From positions 1-33,871 of the forward strand of contig JAKADY010000034.1 of the NCBI GenBank assembly GCA_021826065.1: DNA of 33,871 nucleotides, in the 5' to 3' direction. Below are positions 14,315 to 20,574 of this stretch, in pieces (the first letter of the stretch is position 1; every line of letters starts with the position of its first letter). The position numbers and the translations under genes were made by a program. The stretch is from Pseudomonadota bacterium. Its GTDB lineage: Bacteria > Pseudomonadota > Gammaproteobacteria > Burkholderiales > Thiobacillaceae. The notes under the pieces were generated by a model. It was not told the DNA's origin and made no database searches. It worked only from the letters and a program-made list of their open reading frames with translations.

Positions 14315-14334
14315 CCTTCACGCCTCACCCTTCA
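14309..14334. repeat. Tandem 12-base repeat at the era/recO junction
   Basis: CCTCACCCTTCA occurs at 14309-14320 and 14323-14334, two bases apart. On the coding strand one copy holds the era stop codon and the other the recO GTG start. A related TGAGGCGTGAG string forms the rnc/era junction at 15234-15242. Confidence 0.5.
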
Positions 14335-15236
14335 TACCCCAGCGAGCGCAGCAGGGCCGCGTTGTCCGCCCAACCGTGTTTGACCTTGACCCAGCATTGC
14401 AGAAAGACACGGGCATCGAACAGCCGTTCCATCTCCAGCCGCGCCTCGGTGGCGATGCGCTTCATGCGCTCGCCGCCGTGGCCGAGCAGGATGGGCCGGT
14501 GCGATTCGCGATCGACCCAGATGACGACCTCGATGCGCCTGAGCCCACTGTCTTCCTCGACGAAGCGCTCCACAGCGACGTTGACCCCATAGGGGATCTC
14601 GTCGCCCGTCAAGCGGAAGATCTTCTCGCGCACGATCTCGGCGGCGAGGAAGCGTTCGCTCTTGTCGGTGAACTGATCGGCCTCGAACAGGGGCGGCGAG
14701 GCCGGCAGATGGGGCTTGAGGATGGCCAGCAGCCGCGGGGGATCCTTGCTGTTCAAGGCGGAGAGCGGCACGATCTCGGCGAACTCGCGCAAGCCGGCCA
14801 TCTCCTTGAGCCAGGGCAGCAGGCCCGCCTTGTCCTTCACGCGGTCGACCTTGTTGGCCACCAGGATGACGGGTTTGTCCGCCGGGAGCAGGTCGAGCAC
14901 GCGTCGGTCCGCCTCGGAGAAGCGGCCGGCCTCGACGACGAAGAGGATGACGTCCACATCGGCCAGGACCGCCTGTACCGTCCGGTTCATCGCCTGGTTG
15001 AGCGCATTGCGGTGGCGGGTCTGGAAACCCGGCGTATCGACGAAGATGAACTGCGCGTCCGCCTCGGTGTGGATGCCGTGGATGCGGTGGCGTGTGGTCT
15101 GCGGCTTGTCCGAGACGATGCTCACCTTGGCCCCGACCAGGGCATTGACCAGGGTGGACTTGCCCACGTTCGGCCGCCCCACCACGGCGATGTAGCCGCA
15201 GCGGAAAGCGCCAGTCGGTGCCGCCTCTCCGCTCAC
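14325..15236 (-). CDS. era: GTPase Era, ribosome assembly factor
   Basis: Era binds the 3' end of 16S rRNA and helps 30S maturation. The 303-residue protein has G1 GRPNVGKST (20-28), G3 DTPGFQ, G4 NKVD and G5 SAL, then a C-terminal KH RNA-binding domain near residues 205-285 (VERFVEED, GHGGERMKRIATEAR). The start is GTG at 15234-15236, three bases after the rnc stop, the common close arrangement for rnc-era. Length and motifs fit the family. Confidence 0.96.
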   Translation of the reverse strand: MSGEAAPTGAFRCGYIAVVGRPNVGKSTLVNALVGAKVSIVSDKPQTTRHRIHGIHTEADAQFIFVDTPGFQTRHRNALNQAMNRTVQAVLADVDVILFVVEAGRFSEADRRVLDLLPADKPVILVANKVDRVKDKAGLLPWLKEMAGLREFAEIVPLSALNSKDPPRLLAILKPHLPASPPLFEADQFTDKSERFLAAEIVREKIFRLTGDEIPYGVNVAVERFVEEDSGLRRIEVVIWVDRESHRPILLGHGGERMKRIATEARLEMERLFDARVFLQCWVKVKHGWADNAALLRSLGYEG

Positions 15237-15239
15237 GCC

Positions 15240-15935
15240 TCACCCCTCGCCCAGCAACCGCTCCAGGGCCGCCTGCGCCGCCGCCTGCTCGGCGGCCTTG
15301 CGGCTGTTGCCGCTGCCCTCCGTGGCGAGCCCCAGCGCATCGATGCGGCACTCGACGGTGAAGGTCTGGGCATGGGCCTGCCCGCTCACACCCAGCAATT
15401 GGTAGCTCGGCAGCCCGTGCCGGCGCGACTGCAGCCATTCCTGCAGGCGCGTCTTGGCGTCCTTGCCCTGCACACTGGGGTCTATGCCGGCGATCTTGTC
15501 GGCGAAAAGCCCCGCGATCACATGCTCGGCCGCCGCGTAGCCGCCGTCCAGGAAGGCCGCGCCGAACAGCGCCTCCAGGGCATCGGCCAGGATGGAGGGG
15601 CGCTCGCGCCCGCCGCTCTTCACCTCGCCCTCGCCCAGGCGCAGATGCTCACCCAGGCCGATGGCCAGCGCGATCTCGTGCAGGGACTGCTGATTGACCA
15701 GGTTGGCGCGCAGCCTGGAGAGCCGACCCTCCGGCAGCTGTGGGAAACGCGTGTAGAGCAGGTGCCCCACCACGCAGTTGAGCACCCCATCGCCGAGGAA
15801 CTCCAGGCGCTCGTTGTGCTGGGCGGAGTAGCTGCGGTGGGTCAGTGCCTGTTGCAGCAGCTCGGGCCGGGCGTAGCGGTAGCCCAGCCGCGCCTGGAGA
15901 CGCTGCAGCCCCGGAGCTGCGGTCTCCAGGGTCAT
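15240..15935 (-). CDS. rnc: Ribonuclease III
   Basis: RNase III cleaves double-stranded RNA in rRNA and mRNA processing. The 231-residue protein carries the signature NERLEFLGDGVLN with metal-binding acidic residues, the second catalytic site ILADALEALFGAAFLDGGY, and a C-terminal dsRNA-binding domain (TRLQEWLQSRRHGLPSYQLL, GNSRKAAEQAAAQAAL). The start is ATG 15933-15935, which overlaps the DUF4845 stop as ATGA; the longer open frame upstream is out-of-frame DUF4845 sequence. It lies in the lepB-DUF4845-rnc-era-recO block. Confidence 0.96.
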   Translation of the reverse strand: MTLETAAPGLQRLQARLGYRYARPELLQQALTHRSYSAQHNERLEFLGDGVLNCVVGHLLYTRFPQLPEGRLSRLRANLVNQQSLHEIALAIGLGEHLRLGEGEVKSGGRERPSILADALEALFGAAFLDGGYAAAEHVIAGLFADKIAGIDPSVQGKDAKTRLQEWLQSRRHGLPSYQLLGVSGQAHAQTFTVECRIDALGLATEGSGNSRKAAEQAAAQAALERLLGEG

Positions 15936-16297
15936 CGTCTCGGCGCTTCGCTGTCGGCCTTGAAGTCCAGACATAGGTTCACCGGGCCGATGAACGGCTT
16001 GCGCACGGTCCAGGCGGCCCTCAGCACGACGCCGTCCTTGACCTTCACCATCTCCAGGTCCTTGCGCTCGACGTCGGTGATGCTGCTGACGTAGAGGCGC
16101 TTGGCAAAGGCATCCCGATAGGCGGACAGTCCGCCGCCCTCCAGTTGTGGATCGTTGGCCATGTCCACCAGGGCCTTCCTCACCGCCCAGTAGTCCAGAT
16201 AGGCCGGCAGCAGGCGCGAGGCAGTGTAGACCACGAAACCCAGCAGGAACAAAAAGAACAAGAGCCCGCCGAAAGTCAGCCCCAGTTGTTGTTTCAT
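15932..16297 (-). CDS. DUF4845 single-pass membrane protein
   Basis: This 121-residue protein has one N-terminal membrane segment (residues 6-26, LGLTFGGLLFFLFLLGFVVY) and a soluble domain with YWAVRKALVDMANDP and KRLYVSSITDVERKDLE. It belongs to the DUF4845 family, often found between lepB and rnc in betaproteobacteria; its function is unknown. A GGAGG site nine bases upstream of ATG 16295-16297 fixes the start. It overlaps rnc by four bases. Upstream, where lepB would be expected directly, there is a restriction-modification pair. Confidence 0.88.
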   Translation of the reverse strand: MKQQLGLTFGGLLFFLFLLGFVVYTASRLLPAYLDYWAVRKALVDMANDPQLEGGGLSAYRDAFAKRLYVSSITDVERKDLEMVKVKDGVVLRAAWTVRKPFIGPVNLCLDFKADSEAPRR

Positions 16298-16428
16298 CCC
16301 ACATCCTCCATCGCTAGGAATACGCTGATCAAATCGCTGTTGAAATCGATGCACCCCACAGCTCATGAAATTTTCTGGATTCCGAACTTCGCTGGATGGT
16401 GATCTTGGGTTTACCGAGCCATGAACCA

Positions 16429-17118
16429 TCATTCTTTTGCGGCGTAGCCACGAGGGATTTCGAGCAAACGTAATTGAGGATCGATATGACCTTTACGACG
16501 GGCGACCCCATAAATAGAATTTTCTTCGACATCTTCATTGCCCCATTGCGTCCAGCCTTGGCGGCGGAAACGTGCGAAAAGCTCGAGATACGGGCCAGGG
16601 GAGCACGCCTCGATGATGTCATATATCTCGTCGGGTTTGCGCGAATGTTCACGCTTGCGCGTGGCAATGATATTTACCTGCCTGCGTCCCGCCGGCAGAG
16701 TTCGCATGTTGCCACGCACACCGAACAGAATCAACTCGGTCACGTTACGAAAATAGAAACCTACACCTCGCCCGTCCGGTCCGCCATCCCTGCGGATTTT
16801 GTACCAGACCAGATTGGATTTGTAGGTGAATCCCCACGCCTCCATGACGCTCAGTCCTTCCTTGAGCAAAGCGTTTGGAACCCACAGATAGAGATGGGAT
16901 TGCGCCGCCGCCAACTTGGAAACCGGAAGCTCCATGATCTCCCGGAGCTGCATCGTTGGATATCGCAAAAGACGTCGGTGCTCGGGTGCTACCTTTCCAG
17001 TCCGATTTTGGAACTGCCAGGGCGGGTCTGCCAATATCGTCGAGAATTGTCCACACAACTTAGACAACAAATCCTCCGACGGATTGGGCCCAGCTATATT
17101 ATACACTCTGGCCGTCAT
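16429..17118 (-). CDS. MT-A70 family adenine DNA methyltransferase of a type II R-M system
   Basis: This 229-residue enzyme has the catalytic DPPW motif at 31-34 (TILADPPWQFQNRTG) and the MT-A70 pattern YPTMQLREIMELPV, LYLWVPNALL and ELFARFRRQGWTQWGNE. It should methylate adenine N6 and protect DNA from the neighbouring nuclease. The start is ATG 17116-17118, preceded by a strong GGGAGG ribosome site. An ATG eight codons upstream (17142), overlapping the nuclease stop as ATGA, is possible. Base composition is visibly less GC-rich than in the flanking lepB and rnc genes, a sign of transfer. An RNA methyltransferase is less likely given the nuclease partner. Confidence 0.87.
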   Translation of the reverse strand: MTARVYNIAGPNPSEDLLSKLCGQFSTILADPPWQFQNRTGKVAPEHRRLLRYPTMQLREIMELPVSKLAAAQSHLYLWVPNALLKEGLSVMEAWGFTYKSNLVWYKIRRDGGPDGRGVGFYFRNVTELILFGVRGNMRTLPAGRRQVNIIATRKREHSRKPDEIYDIIEACSPGPYLELFARFRRQGWTQWGNEDVEENSIYGVARRKGHIDPQLRLLEIPRGYAAKE

Positions 17119-17138
17119 AGAACCTCCCGGCGTATGGA

Positions 17139-17879
17139 TCATATCGACACGACATCACGGGGAATTCCAATCAATAACAGAGGACAGGGATTGCCAACGC
17201 CTCGTCGCACTCGTTCGGCCAATTTTCGCCAATGCGTCGTGGCCTCCCCGAACTTATCAGACACGAATGCGTGAGCCCAGCCTACTTCGAAAGAACCTTT
17301 CGCTTTCACGGATCTTTCGATCAATTCGATCTGGCGGGCGGTCGGCGCGTAGTACTTTCCAAGATCCTCCTTTTTGCTGATACCGTGTTTCCTGGCGAAT
17401 TGGGCGATGATGTCGCGGAGTGAACTTTGCAGCGACTCACCGCGAGTGATGATCGAGCCTATCGATATAACCCCCTCGGCATGCAGTCTTTTGAAATTTT
17501 CTAAATCCCTATCAAAAAAAGGATCCTTGTTATTCCACTCGATTTCAAGTGCAAAAGTTCCAGTCTTGAATCGCTTGACATGATCGACCTCGTGCGAAAT
17601 CGACTCTCTTTCCTGGCCATCCACTATTTTTTTAATCTCAAAGCTGTGTTTTCTCCAACCATAGATCTCCGTCAGGGTTTTCCTGAGTCGCTGTGTCAAC
17701 TCCCCTTCACCACCTCCGCCGTGAACCAGCTCCTCAGCCTTGATTTCTATTCCAAGTAGCACCTGCTCGAGCTCGACGACCGCCTCGGGCATATCGTGCC
17801 TCAAAATCGCCTCTGCATGGTGCAGGGTGAGGATTTCGAACCCTCTGGCCTTGAGTCTTGCGAACATCTGTTGATGCAT
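17139..17879 (-). CDS. Type II restriction endonuclease, BglII/BstYI-like
   Basis: The 246-residue protein is predicted to be the nuclease of a type II system. The centre carries a PD-(D/E)XK-type site, D99 then E112-I-E114 (ALEIEWNNKDPFFDRDLENF), followed by SIGSIITRGESLQSSL. This layout resembles the BglII/BstYI family, whose members cut within GATC-containing sites; the exact target cannot be read here. EXE rather than EXK or EXQ recalls BamHI. The start may be ATG 17879 or ATG 17867 (MFARLKARG); no strong ribosome site is seen. It lies 26 bases after lepB, is AT-rich for the region, and its stop precedes the methyltransferase. There is no controller gene. Confidence 0.78.
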   Translation of the reverse strand: MHQQMFARLKARGFEILTLHHAEAILRHDMPEAVVELEQVLLGIEIKAEELVHGGGGEGELTQRLRKTLTEIYGWRKHSFEIKKIVDGQERESISHEVDHVKRFKTGTFALEIEWNNKDPFFDRDLENFKRLHAEGVISIGSIITRGESLQSSLRDIIAQFARKHGISKKEDLGKYYAPTARQIELIERSVKAKGSFEVGWAHAFVSDKFGEATTHWRKLAERVRRGVGNPCPLLLIGIPRDVVSI

Positions 17880-17905
17880 TCGAGCGTTACACGCCTCTAC
17901 GCCGG

Positions 17906-18781
17906 CTACTCGATGGACCGCCCGATGCGCGACAGGTCGCCGAAGTTCATCCAGATGAGGAAGGCCCGGCCGACGATGTTGCGGTCCGGCACGAACCCCC
18001 AGTAGCGCGAGTCGTTGCTGGCATCGCGGTTGTCACCCAGCATGAAATAGTGTCCTTCCGGCACCCGGCAGCGGAATCCGCGCTCGTTGTAGGTGCAGTT
18101 CTCCCGGTGCGGGAAGGCGCCCTCGACCTGATAGAGGATCACCGGCGGCAGGTCGGGGATCACCATGGCCGTGTACCGATGGCCGTCGATACGCTCCCAG
18201 TAGGTCTGCGCACGCACGAAGTTGAGGCCGTCGGCGACGTATTCATAACTGCCGGCCGGCTCCATCGCCACCGGCTGGCCGTTGATGATGAGCCGCTTGT
18301 CGATGTACTCCACCGTGTCACCGGGCAGTCCGATCACCCGCTTGATGTAATCGAGCGCCGGGTCCTTGGGGTAGCGGAACACCATGACATCGCCCCGCTT
18401 GGGCTCGCCGACCTCGAACACCTTGACGTTGAGGATGGGCAGCCGGATGCCATAGTCGAACTTGTTGACCAGGATGAAGTCGCCGATCTCCAGCGTGGGC
18501 AACATGGAACCGGAGGGGATCTTGAAGGGCTCGACCAGGAAGGAGCGCAACAGGAAGACCACCAGGATCACCGGAAAGAAGCTGCGCGCGTAGTCCACCA
18601 CCACCGGCTCCGGCTCGCCCTCGGCGCGCCGCTTGCGCAGCCAGACGACGTCCGCCAGCCAGATGACACCGGTGAGCACCAGCAGCAGGAAGAGGAAGAG
18701 GGCGAAGCTCATGGCGCTCTGGTAGACGAGCACCAAGCCCACAAGGATGAGGCCCCAGAAGACGAACTTCATCGCCTGCAT
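17906..18781 (-). CDS. lepB: Signal peptidase I
   Basis: LepB removes signal peptides from exported proteins at the outer face of the inner membrane. The 291-residue protein has N-terminal membrane segments (residues 5-20, 25-47 and 67-82), the Ser nucleophile S92 in KIPSGSMLPTL and the general base K147 in DYIKRVIGLPGD. The conserved GDNRDASNDSRYWGFVP box follows. ATG at 18779-18781 shares its A with the lepA stop (TGATG) and follows a GGGAGAG site; a GTG one codon earlier is also open. It is co-transcribed with lepA. Confidence 0.96.
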   Translation of the reverse strand: MQAMKFVFWGLILVGLVLVYQSAMSFALFLFLLLVLTGVIWLADVVWLRKRRAEGEPEPVVVDYARSFFPVILVVFLLRSFLVEPFKIPSGSMLPTLEIGDFILVNKFDYGIRLPILNVKVFEVGEPKRGDVMVFRYPKDPALDYIKRVIGLPGDTVEYIDKRLIINGQPVAMEPAGSYEYVADGLNFVRAQTYWERIDGHRYTAMVIPDLPPVILYQVEGAFPHRENCTYNERGFRCRVPEGHYFMLGDNRDASNDSRYWGFVPDRNIVGRAFLIWMNFGDLSRIGRSIE

Positions 18782-20574
18782 CACTTCTCTCCCACCTGGA
18801 GGATGGCCAGAAAGGCCTCCTGCGGGATCTCGACGTTGCCCACCTGTTTCATGCGTTTCTTGCCTTCCTTTTGTTTTTCGAGCAGTTTGCGCTTACGCGT
18901 GATGTCGCCGCCGTAGCACTTGGCCAGCACATTCTTGCGCAGGGCCTTGACCGTCTCGCGGGCGATAATGTGGCTGCCGATGGCCGCCTGCACCGCCACG
19001 TCGAACATCTGCCGCGGGATCAGCTCGCGCATCTTGGCGACCAGCTCGCGCCCGCGGTACTGGGCGGTGGAGCGGTGGACGATGAGCGAGAGGGCATCCA
19101 CCCGCTCGCCGTTGACCAGGACATCGAGCTTGACCAGATCGTCGGCGCGGAACTCCTTGAACTCATAGTCGAGGGAGGCATAGCCGCGCGAGGTGGACTT
19201 GAGCTTATCGAAGAAGTCCATCACCACCTCGTTGAGCGGCAGGTCGTACTTGAGCATGACCTGGTGGCCCATGTATTTCATGTCCACCTGGGTGCCGCGC
19301 TTCTGGTTGCACAGGGTCATCACGTTGCCCAGATGGGCCTCCGGCACCAGGATGGTGGCGGTGATGATGGGCTCGCGGATCTCGGCGATCTTGCCCGGAT
19401 CGGGCAGCCGCGAGGGGTTCTCGATCAACTGCACGCTGCCGTCGCGCAGCACCACCTCGTACTCGACGGTGGGCGCTGTGGTGATCAGGTTCTGGCCGTA
19501 TTCGCGCTCCAAGCGCTCCTGCACGATGTCCATGTGCAAAAGCCCGAGAAAGCCGCAGCGGAAGCCGAATCCCAGGGCCTGCGAGGTCTCCGGCTCGAAC
19601 TGCAGGCTGGCGTCGTTGAGCTTCAACTTCTCCAGCGCATCGCGCAGGCTGTCGTATTCGTGTGCATCCACCGGATAGAGCCCGGCGAAGACCTGCGGCT
19701 TGATCTCCTTGAAGCCGGGCAGCGGCGCCTCGGCCGGGCGTGTGGCCGAGGTGATGGTGTCGCCGACGCGGGCATGCTTGAGCTCCTTGATGCCGGCGAT
19801 GACGAAACCCACCTGCCCGGCGCTCAGCACCTCGCGCGTAACCGACTTGGGCGTGAACACCCCCACCTGCTCGCATAGATACTCCGCCCCGGTGGCCATC
19901 AGGCGGATCCGGTCCTTGGGCCTGAGCTCCCCATCCACCACCCGCACCAGCATCACCACGCCGACGTAGTTGTCGAACCAGGAATCGGTGATCAGCGCCT
20001 TGAGCGGCGCCTGCGGGTCGCCCTTGGGCGGCGGGATGCGCGTGACCACCGCCTCCAGCACCTCGTCTATGCCCTCGCCGGTCTTGGCCGAGCAGCGGAT
20101 GGCATCCTGCGCCGGGATGCCGATGATGTCCTCGATCTCCTGGATCACCCGCTGCGGGTCGGCCGCTGGCAGGTCGATCTTGTTGAGCACCGGCACCACC
20201 TCCACCCCCAGCTCGATTGCCGTATAGCAGTTGGCGACGGTCTGCGCCTCCACCCCCTGTGAGGCATCGACCACCAGCAACGCCCCCTCGCAGGCGGCGA
20301 GCGAGCGGCTCACCTCATAGGAGAAATCGACGTGCCCCGGCGTGTCGATGAGGTTGAGAGAATAGGTCTGCCCATCACGCGCCGTGTAGTTCAGGGCTGC
20401 CGTCTGCGCCTTGATGGTGATGCCGCGCTCACGCTCCAGCTCCATGGAGTCGAGCACCTGCTCGGCCATCTCGCGCTCGGTGAGCCCCCCGCAGCGCTGG
20501 ATGAGCCGGTCGGCGAGCGTGCTCTTGCCGTGGTCGATGTGGGCGATGATGGAGAAGTTGCGGATGTGGCGCAT
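18781..20574 (-). CDS. lepA: Elongation factor 4 (LepA)
   Basis: LepA is a ribosome-bound GTPase involved in 30S biogenesis and translation under stress. The 597-residue protein has G1 AHIDHGKST (11-19), G3 DTPGHVDF, G4 NKID and G5 CSAK. It also has the EF-G-like domains and the LepA-specific C terminus ([39 protein letters not shown]). Length is normal for the family. It begins the lepA-lepB unit, 242 bases from the small coiled-coil gene upstream. Confidence 0.97.

Follow-up and report, generated by a model that had tools for sequence, protein, structure and literature searches.

A type II restriction-modification (R-M) pair lies between lepB and a DUF4845 gene, and comparison with relatives supports the view that it is a segment of foreign composition inside the lepB-rnc-era cluster that related genomes lack. 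Taking the reading as a whole, we consider it very probable that the pair was acquired and inserted in the lepB-DUF4845 interval, that it is a type II pair, probably active and probably read from the operon transcript, and that it is edged by a MITE relic. All positions refer to the window, that is, the entire stretch of 33,871 nucleotides that was analysed, and the features concerned are as follows.

18781 to 20574, minus strand: lepA, upstream in the same cluster; an open reading frame named from its translation alone
17906 to 18784, minus strand: lepB, signal peptidase I (PF10502), upstream neighbour of the pair
17905 to 17908, unstranded: candidate target duplication, copy 2, GCTA, overlapping the lepB stop codon; 4 bases, weak
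17139 to 17867, minus strand: R, BstYI/BglII-like type II restriction endonuclease, 242 aa
16429 to 17118, minus strand: M, MT-A70 family DNA methyltransferase, 229 aa, DPPW motif intact
16317 to 16428, unstranded: decayed copy of a 110-bp MITE; the DUF4845-side terminal repeat is recognisable, the M-side one is not
16313 to 16316, unstranded: candidate target duplication, copy 1, GCTA as read on the plus strand; 4 bases, weak
15932 to 16297, minus strand: DUF4845 gene (PF16137), downstream neighbour; start taken from comparison with relatives
15240 to 15953 (5' end approximate), minus strand: rnc, RNase III (Ribonucleas_3_3 and dsrm), downstream in the same cluster
14325 to 15236, minus strand: era, GTPase (MMR_HSR1 and KH_2), downstream in the same cluster

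The first-pass annotation had placed a same-strand type II pair between lepB and DUF4845, and the pair does lie there, with both reading frames present and matching PF09195 and PF05063. Alignment with homologues put the start codons at ATG 17867 for R and ATG 17118 for M, which gives a lepB-R gap of 38 nt and an R-M spacing of 20 nt. Of the two outer gaps claimed earlier, the 131 bases to DUF4845 (ATG 16297) stood, whereas the 26 bases to lepB became 38 nt with the homologue-based R start. An in-frame ATG at 17879, upstream of the R start, would add 4 residues, and the M frame is open from ATG 17142, upstream of its conserved start at 17118. The lepB stop codon (17906-17908) forms one edge of the insertion, and the other, right-hand edge carries the GGAGG ribosome site of DUF4845. 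Among the window neighbours, the family of recO was also confirmed by Pfam scan. The region had been described as AT-richer than its surroundings, and GC content indeed drops to 0.49-0.54 over the pair (R 0.506, M 0.536) against 0.66 for the whole window. GC3 was 0.57 in R and 0.585 in M, compared with 0.894 in era, 0.91 in lepA and 0.925 in lepB; the value for DUF4845 plus rnc was left out of this comparison because it mixes two frames.

R matches the Pfam family Endonuc-BglII (PF09195) with an E-value of 2.9e-23 and 82.8 bits against a cut-off of 26. Searched against the sequences of solved structures, R alone gave zero matches and its profile one irrelevant match (E 0.17); neither R nor M matched an NCBIfam model. 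The fold of R was predicted with a mean pLDDT of 88, and the best match of this model among solved structures was BstYI (Z 19.1, rmsd 2.9, 166 residues aligned; Foldseek E 2.9e-6), followed by BglII (Z 17.2) and BamHI (Z 16.3), while the first structure outside the BstYI/BglII/BamHI/OkrAI group reached Z 6.3. The resemblance to these enzymes (PDB 2p0j, 1sdo, 1d2i, 3bam) lies in the predicted fold, at Z 16-19 over 151-168 residues; sequence identity is 16-20%, and the partner of R is an MT-A70 methyltransferase. According to the model, R is an enzyme of the BstYI/BglII/BamHI fold, and we predict it to be active.

A scan of bacterial genomes yielded 558 nuclease homologues, and the best 80 of these, 52-78% identical to R, were taken as the homologue set. 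A stop codon falls within the matched stretch in three of the 80 nucleases (L044, L069, L075) and in one of 78 methyltransferases (L055). These were set aside, together with nucleases L076, L077 and L079 (coverage at most 0.9), and 28 nucleases and 24 methyltransferases (of 78; L044 included) were hand-picked from the remainder for alignment. R retains all 65 columns that are invariant among the 28 homologues. Three acidic residues, D95, E108 and E110, are invariant across the 29 aligned sequences, and by analogy with BamHI the catalytic acidic residues are presumably to be sought among them.

M was identified by Pfam MT-A70 (PF05063, E 6.3e-32, 111.3 bits against a cut-off of 23.9) and by the PADLOC model MTase_II (E 1.9e-95). 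It carries the DPPW motif at residues 31-34, its start is preceded by a GGGAGG ribosome site, and it retains 84 of the 85 columns invariant among the 24 homologues, the exception being K110R. Both R and M look intact as far as their sequences tell.

Whether the pair is native to this place was judged from the lepB junctions of relatives. The lepB gene was detected in all 61 genomes, the own genome included, and the 30 loci best by lepB match, one of them the window itself, were taken for junction reading. The first-pass annotation had suggested a comparison with close relatives and had named presence of the pair at this site across the lineage as the outcome that would speak against its reading; what was found is that none of the 29 related loci carries the pair. 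DUF4845, recognised from its translation, directly follows lepB in 26 of them, with a gap of at most 16 nt. In the other three (L024, L025, L028) lepB runs straight into an rnc-like gene, and DUF4845 is seemingly absent. Nuclease matches occurred in 14 of 117 genomes of the family, including the own genome, with the other 13 at no more than 44% identity; no close copy was found in the other 116 family genomes. No nuclease match came from the genus's other three species, whose genomes are 84-92% complete and whose lepB junctions are among the 29 read. A phylum-wide draw gave matches in 10 of 398 genomes, again including the own, with the others at 40% identity or below. On these comparisons the pair is a species-specific insertion, with the lepB stop codon on one side and the ribosome site of DUF4845 on the other. 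It would have been acquired horizontally, in the order R then M, and inserted in one species. With empty sites in sister species, this makes a clean case of a potentially self-addicting pair among lepB, rnc and era.

We then considered how the inserted genes might be expressed. No terminator-like site was found between 16200 and 18100, a count that lies below the 1.7 of shuffled sequence and carries little weight for that reason. The same interval holds 2 promoter-like sites against 1.4 expected, and neither stands ahead of R or M. With no terminator and no promoter of the pair's own found, the simplest reading is that transcription runs through into DUF4845-rnc-era. It is plausible that the pair is co-transcribed from the promoter of the upstream genes, probably on the lepA-lepB transcript. 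The pairing energy of the ribosome site is -10.9 kcal/mol for M and +0.1 for R at 17867, whereas the medians of homologues are -6.3 (n = 33) for M and -5.3 (n = 35) for R and random genome stretches have a median of -2.7; a weaker site than that of R occurs in 3 of the 35 homologues. Such a strong M site next to a poor R site would favour M over R. R would probably be weakly translated, perhaps by re-initiation 38 nt past the lepB stop codon, so that M is kept above R. Weak translation of R is less than certain, since the alternative ATG at 17879 has an energy of -5.8 at a spacing of about 14 nt.

We infer that M protects the site of R, probably by methylating adenine within a hexamer centred on GATC, RGATCY for example, and the pair would defend against unmethylated DNA. 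Methylation of RGATCY to m6A has been published for other bacteria (PMC4706337 and PMC3526280). Sites were counted for 64 six-base palindromes in 802,548 bases of the own genome, 197,613 of G003 and 303,232 of G002. The observed/expected ratio of RGATCY was 0.88 in the own genome and 0.88 and 0.84 in two sister species lacking the pair; that of AGATCT was 0.56, compared with 0.59 and 0.46. Site avoidance was accordingly dropped as proof of activity, because neither RGATCY nor its members showed a species-specific shortage. In the same genomes the tetramer CTAG is under-represented, at 0.29 in the own genome (G000), 0.18 in G002 and 0.54 in G003, though the MITE described below uses CTAG- or TTAG-like targets.

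The earlier claim that target or mobile-element repeats are missing did not survive inspection of the edges, where a MITE relic fills the 3' gap and a 4-base match flanks the insert. Most of the 131 bases between M and DUF4845 derive from a 110-bp MITE of the own genome, here in decayed form; the family has inverted ends GGAAACGCTGAT... The M stop codon abuts this relic, and the outer end of the relic is the edge of the insertion. Against an intact copy, the relic shows 80 identities, 28 mismatches and 6 gap positions. Local alignment of 16317-16419 to the MITE scored 104.5; among 2000 stretches drawn at random from the genome, the top five scores were 48, 48, 48, 49 and 220, the last presumably a draw that hit the MITE element itself. 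At its ends, the relic scored 38 of 50 on the DUF4845 side and 14 on the M side, the latter being the 95% level of random stretches. Between relic and DUF4845 remain 15-19 bases with the DUF4845 ribosome site, close to the 8-16-base leader of most relatives. Folding of the M-DUF4845 gap as a hairpin was no better than in shuffles (z +1.5), and a search of 149 genomes, the own included, with the relic returned, besides itself, matches of only 19-46 bases.

Three intact copies of the MITE, alike at 102-107 of 110 bases and with both terminal inverted repeats present, have the target duplications TTAG, CTAG and ATAA adjoining GGAA. Such 4-base duplications resemble, we take it, those of IS5-type elements; the own genome has 7 DDE_Tnp_1 matches. 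One intact copy (L330:2906-3217, contig C25) interrupts an open reading frame that by eye resembles a VapC-type toxin (Pfam: none) and lies downstream of a DUF433/DUF5615 pair. Elsewhere in the own genome, on contig C4 (L135:12478-15548), a second R-M pair, consisting of an N6_N4_Mtase and an XhoI-family nuclease, is bracketed by two MITE copies. It adjoins a short gene of the phage-integrase family and, by eye, an attC-like site. A 91% identical copy is present in G032 and loses its similarity at the base preceding the right-hand MITE, where, by eye, the sequence is like an integron attC site.

Since the right edge of the insert is a MITE relic, the MITE was either already in place when the pair arrived or came along with it. 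On the second alternative, pair and MITE family would have travelled as one unit, the pair lying between or beside MITE copies that a transposase mobilised in trans, and the lepB-side MITE would since have been lost or decayed. The way the M stop codon meets the relic, whose far end is the insertion edge, fits this course of events, as do the exact 4-base GCTA match at both outer edges and the second pair on C4, which likewise has a copy of this family on either side. However, no MITE remnant above chance was found on the lepB side (score 14, the 95% level of random stretches), and longer repeats between the flanks were insignificant, whether direct (p 0.75), inverted (p 0.62) or within the short leader (p 0.78). 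GCTA also departs from the pattern of the intact copies, which have TTAG, CTAG or ATAA next to GGAA. On C4, the right-hand MITE has its own TTAG pair and was probably inserted singly, and the R-M pair itself may be an integron cassette, in which case its position would be explained without the MITE. Furthermore, 98 loci with homologous or distant nucleases gave only 15-29-base matches to the MITE. The association rests on one relic in the window and one other locus. We therefore rate movement as a MITE unit as unlikely. The MITE edge offers a concrete starting point for learning how bare R-M pairs travel in the absence of a recombinase.

An artefact, in which misjoined or wrongly binned sequence placed the pair in the operon, is highly improbable. 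The genome is a draft of 74 contigs and the pair differs in base composition, as such an artefact would have it, but the flanks are continuous on a single 33.9-kb contig of an assembly with completeness 100 and contamination 0.12. Besides itself, 16305-18000 has one match in the assembly, over a 46-base, 83% piece inside the MITE relic, which puts both junctions outside any exact repeat. A dead or orphaned pair, decaying as a relic with its nuclease unmade, would account for the poor ribosome site at the conserved R start, for the absence of site avoidance and for the decay of the adjacent MITE copy. It agrees badly with two open frames that retain 65 of 65 (R) and 84 of 85 (M) homologue-invariant columns, and we regard it as improbable. 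An acquired and probably active pair remains the reading that we prefer.

The wider family was examined in the best 80 of the 558 loci. By record titles, among which are many draft bins, some perhaps misassigned, these come from Proteobacteria, Nitrospirae, Planctomycetes, Bacteroidetes, Actinomycetes, Spirochaetes and others, and to judge from this spread the R-M family is widely exchanged. An MT-A70 gene lies alongside the nuclease in 78 of the 80 loci, which is beyond chance. R precedes M in 38 loci and M precedes R in 9; 28 are convergent and 3 divergent. R-then-M accounts for 36 of the 37 loci with a nuclease identity of at least 63%. The 38 R-then-M loci have 69 nearest neighbours, of which 20, all co-directional and chosen mostly for short gaps, were scanned with Pfam. 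None of these 20 matched a transposase or integrase; they include the housekeeping genes pgi, hisG, gyrB/parE-like, ribonucleotide reductase, gatA and gatB, and one is another DNA methylase. An upstream co-directional gene was seen at 25 of 35 tandem loci compared with 24 of 53 convergent loci (p 0.018; rough gene calls). A general rule that pairs stand behind co-directional genes was rejected, since control genes, with 221 of 375, give no significant contrast to the tandem figure of 25/35 (p 0.21; rough gene calls). Carriage of the close lineage by plasmids or phages was likewise rejected, with best identities of 53% in 10 plasmid records, 56% in 5 phage records and 56% in 30 loci of viral contigs.

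One of these loci resembles the window closely. In the bin Rhodocyclaceae bacterium STA_53 (L052:3509-7942), a pair of the same family, also R then M on one strand, sits between gatA (Amidase) and gatB, about 32 nt after the former and 57 nt before the latter by match ends. The gene cluster and host are different, and the nucleases are 72% identical. In a phylum-wide draw, own genome included, gatB lies within about 51 nt after gatA in 19 of 25 loci read, and the L052 pair is likely a second core-cluster insertion. A more sweeping proposal is that the MITE family, a non-autonomous transposable element, acts as carrier or landing edge of R-M pairs in the own genome, where two unrelated pairs, the BstYI-like one of the window and the XhoI-like one of C4, end at its copies, and that the BstYI-like lineage repeatedly enters core clusters (lepB-DUF4845, gatA-gatB) without a recombinase of its own; we hold this to be doubtful.

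Furuta et al. (2010) is reportedly the source cited for the insertion of R-M systems into operons. Such insertion, and the suggestion that it enforces maintenance of the operon through post-segregational killing, are stated in PMC4615327 and PMC10273834, so that the main idea of the first-pass annotation, a pair that would be difficult to shed without consequences for rnc and era, is already in print for other R-M pairs. According to that published idea, a cell that lost the pair could be killed by the nuclease remaining in it, and the cluster would be tied to the pair. The lepB-R-M-rnc layout is a possible test bed for the published claim that R-M systems protect the operons they have entered. 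PabI-family pairs sit in glutamate synthase and histidine operons (PMC4615327, section 8; PMC10273834, section 4.3). As these sections describe them, they share with the window pair the same-strand position inside a functional operon; the window pair differs in its BstYI/BglII-fold nuclease and MT-A70 partner, in a cluster with lepB, rnc and era, and in the MITE relic at one edge. Among the titles and abstract openings listed, none dealt with this R-M family at lepB-DUF4845, and none of the matches listed (titles and abstract openings) tied R-M pairs to MITEs. As far as these literature listings show, what is added here is this family at this site, the comparison with empty sites, the likely gatA-gatB case and the MITE edge. 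In the EcoRI and Eco29kI operons (PMC3874152, section 21), R precedes M and M has an internal promoter. The window pair shares this gene order, but has no promoter-like site within R ahead of M and sits in a host gene cluster.
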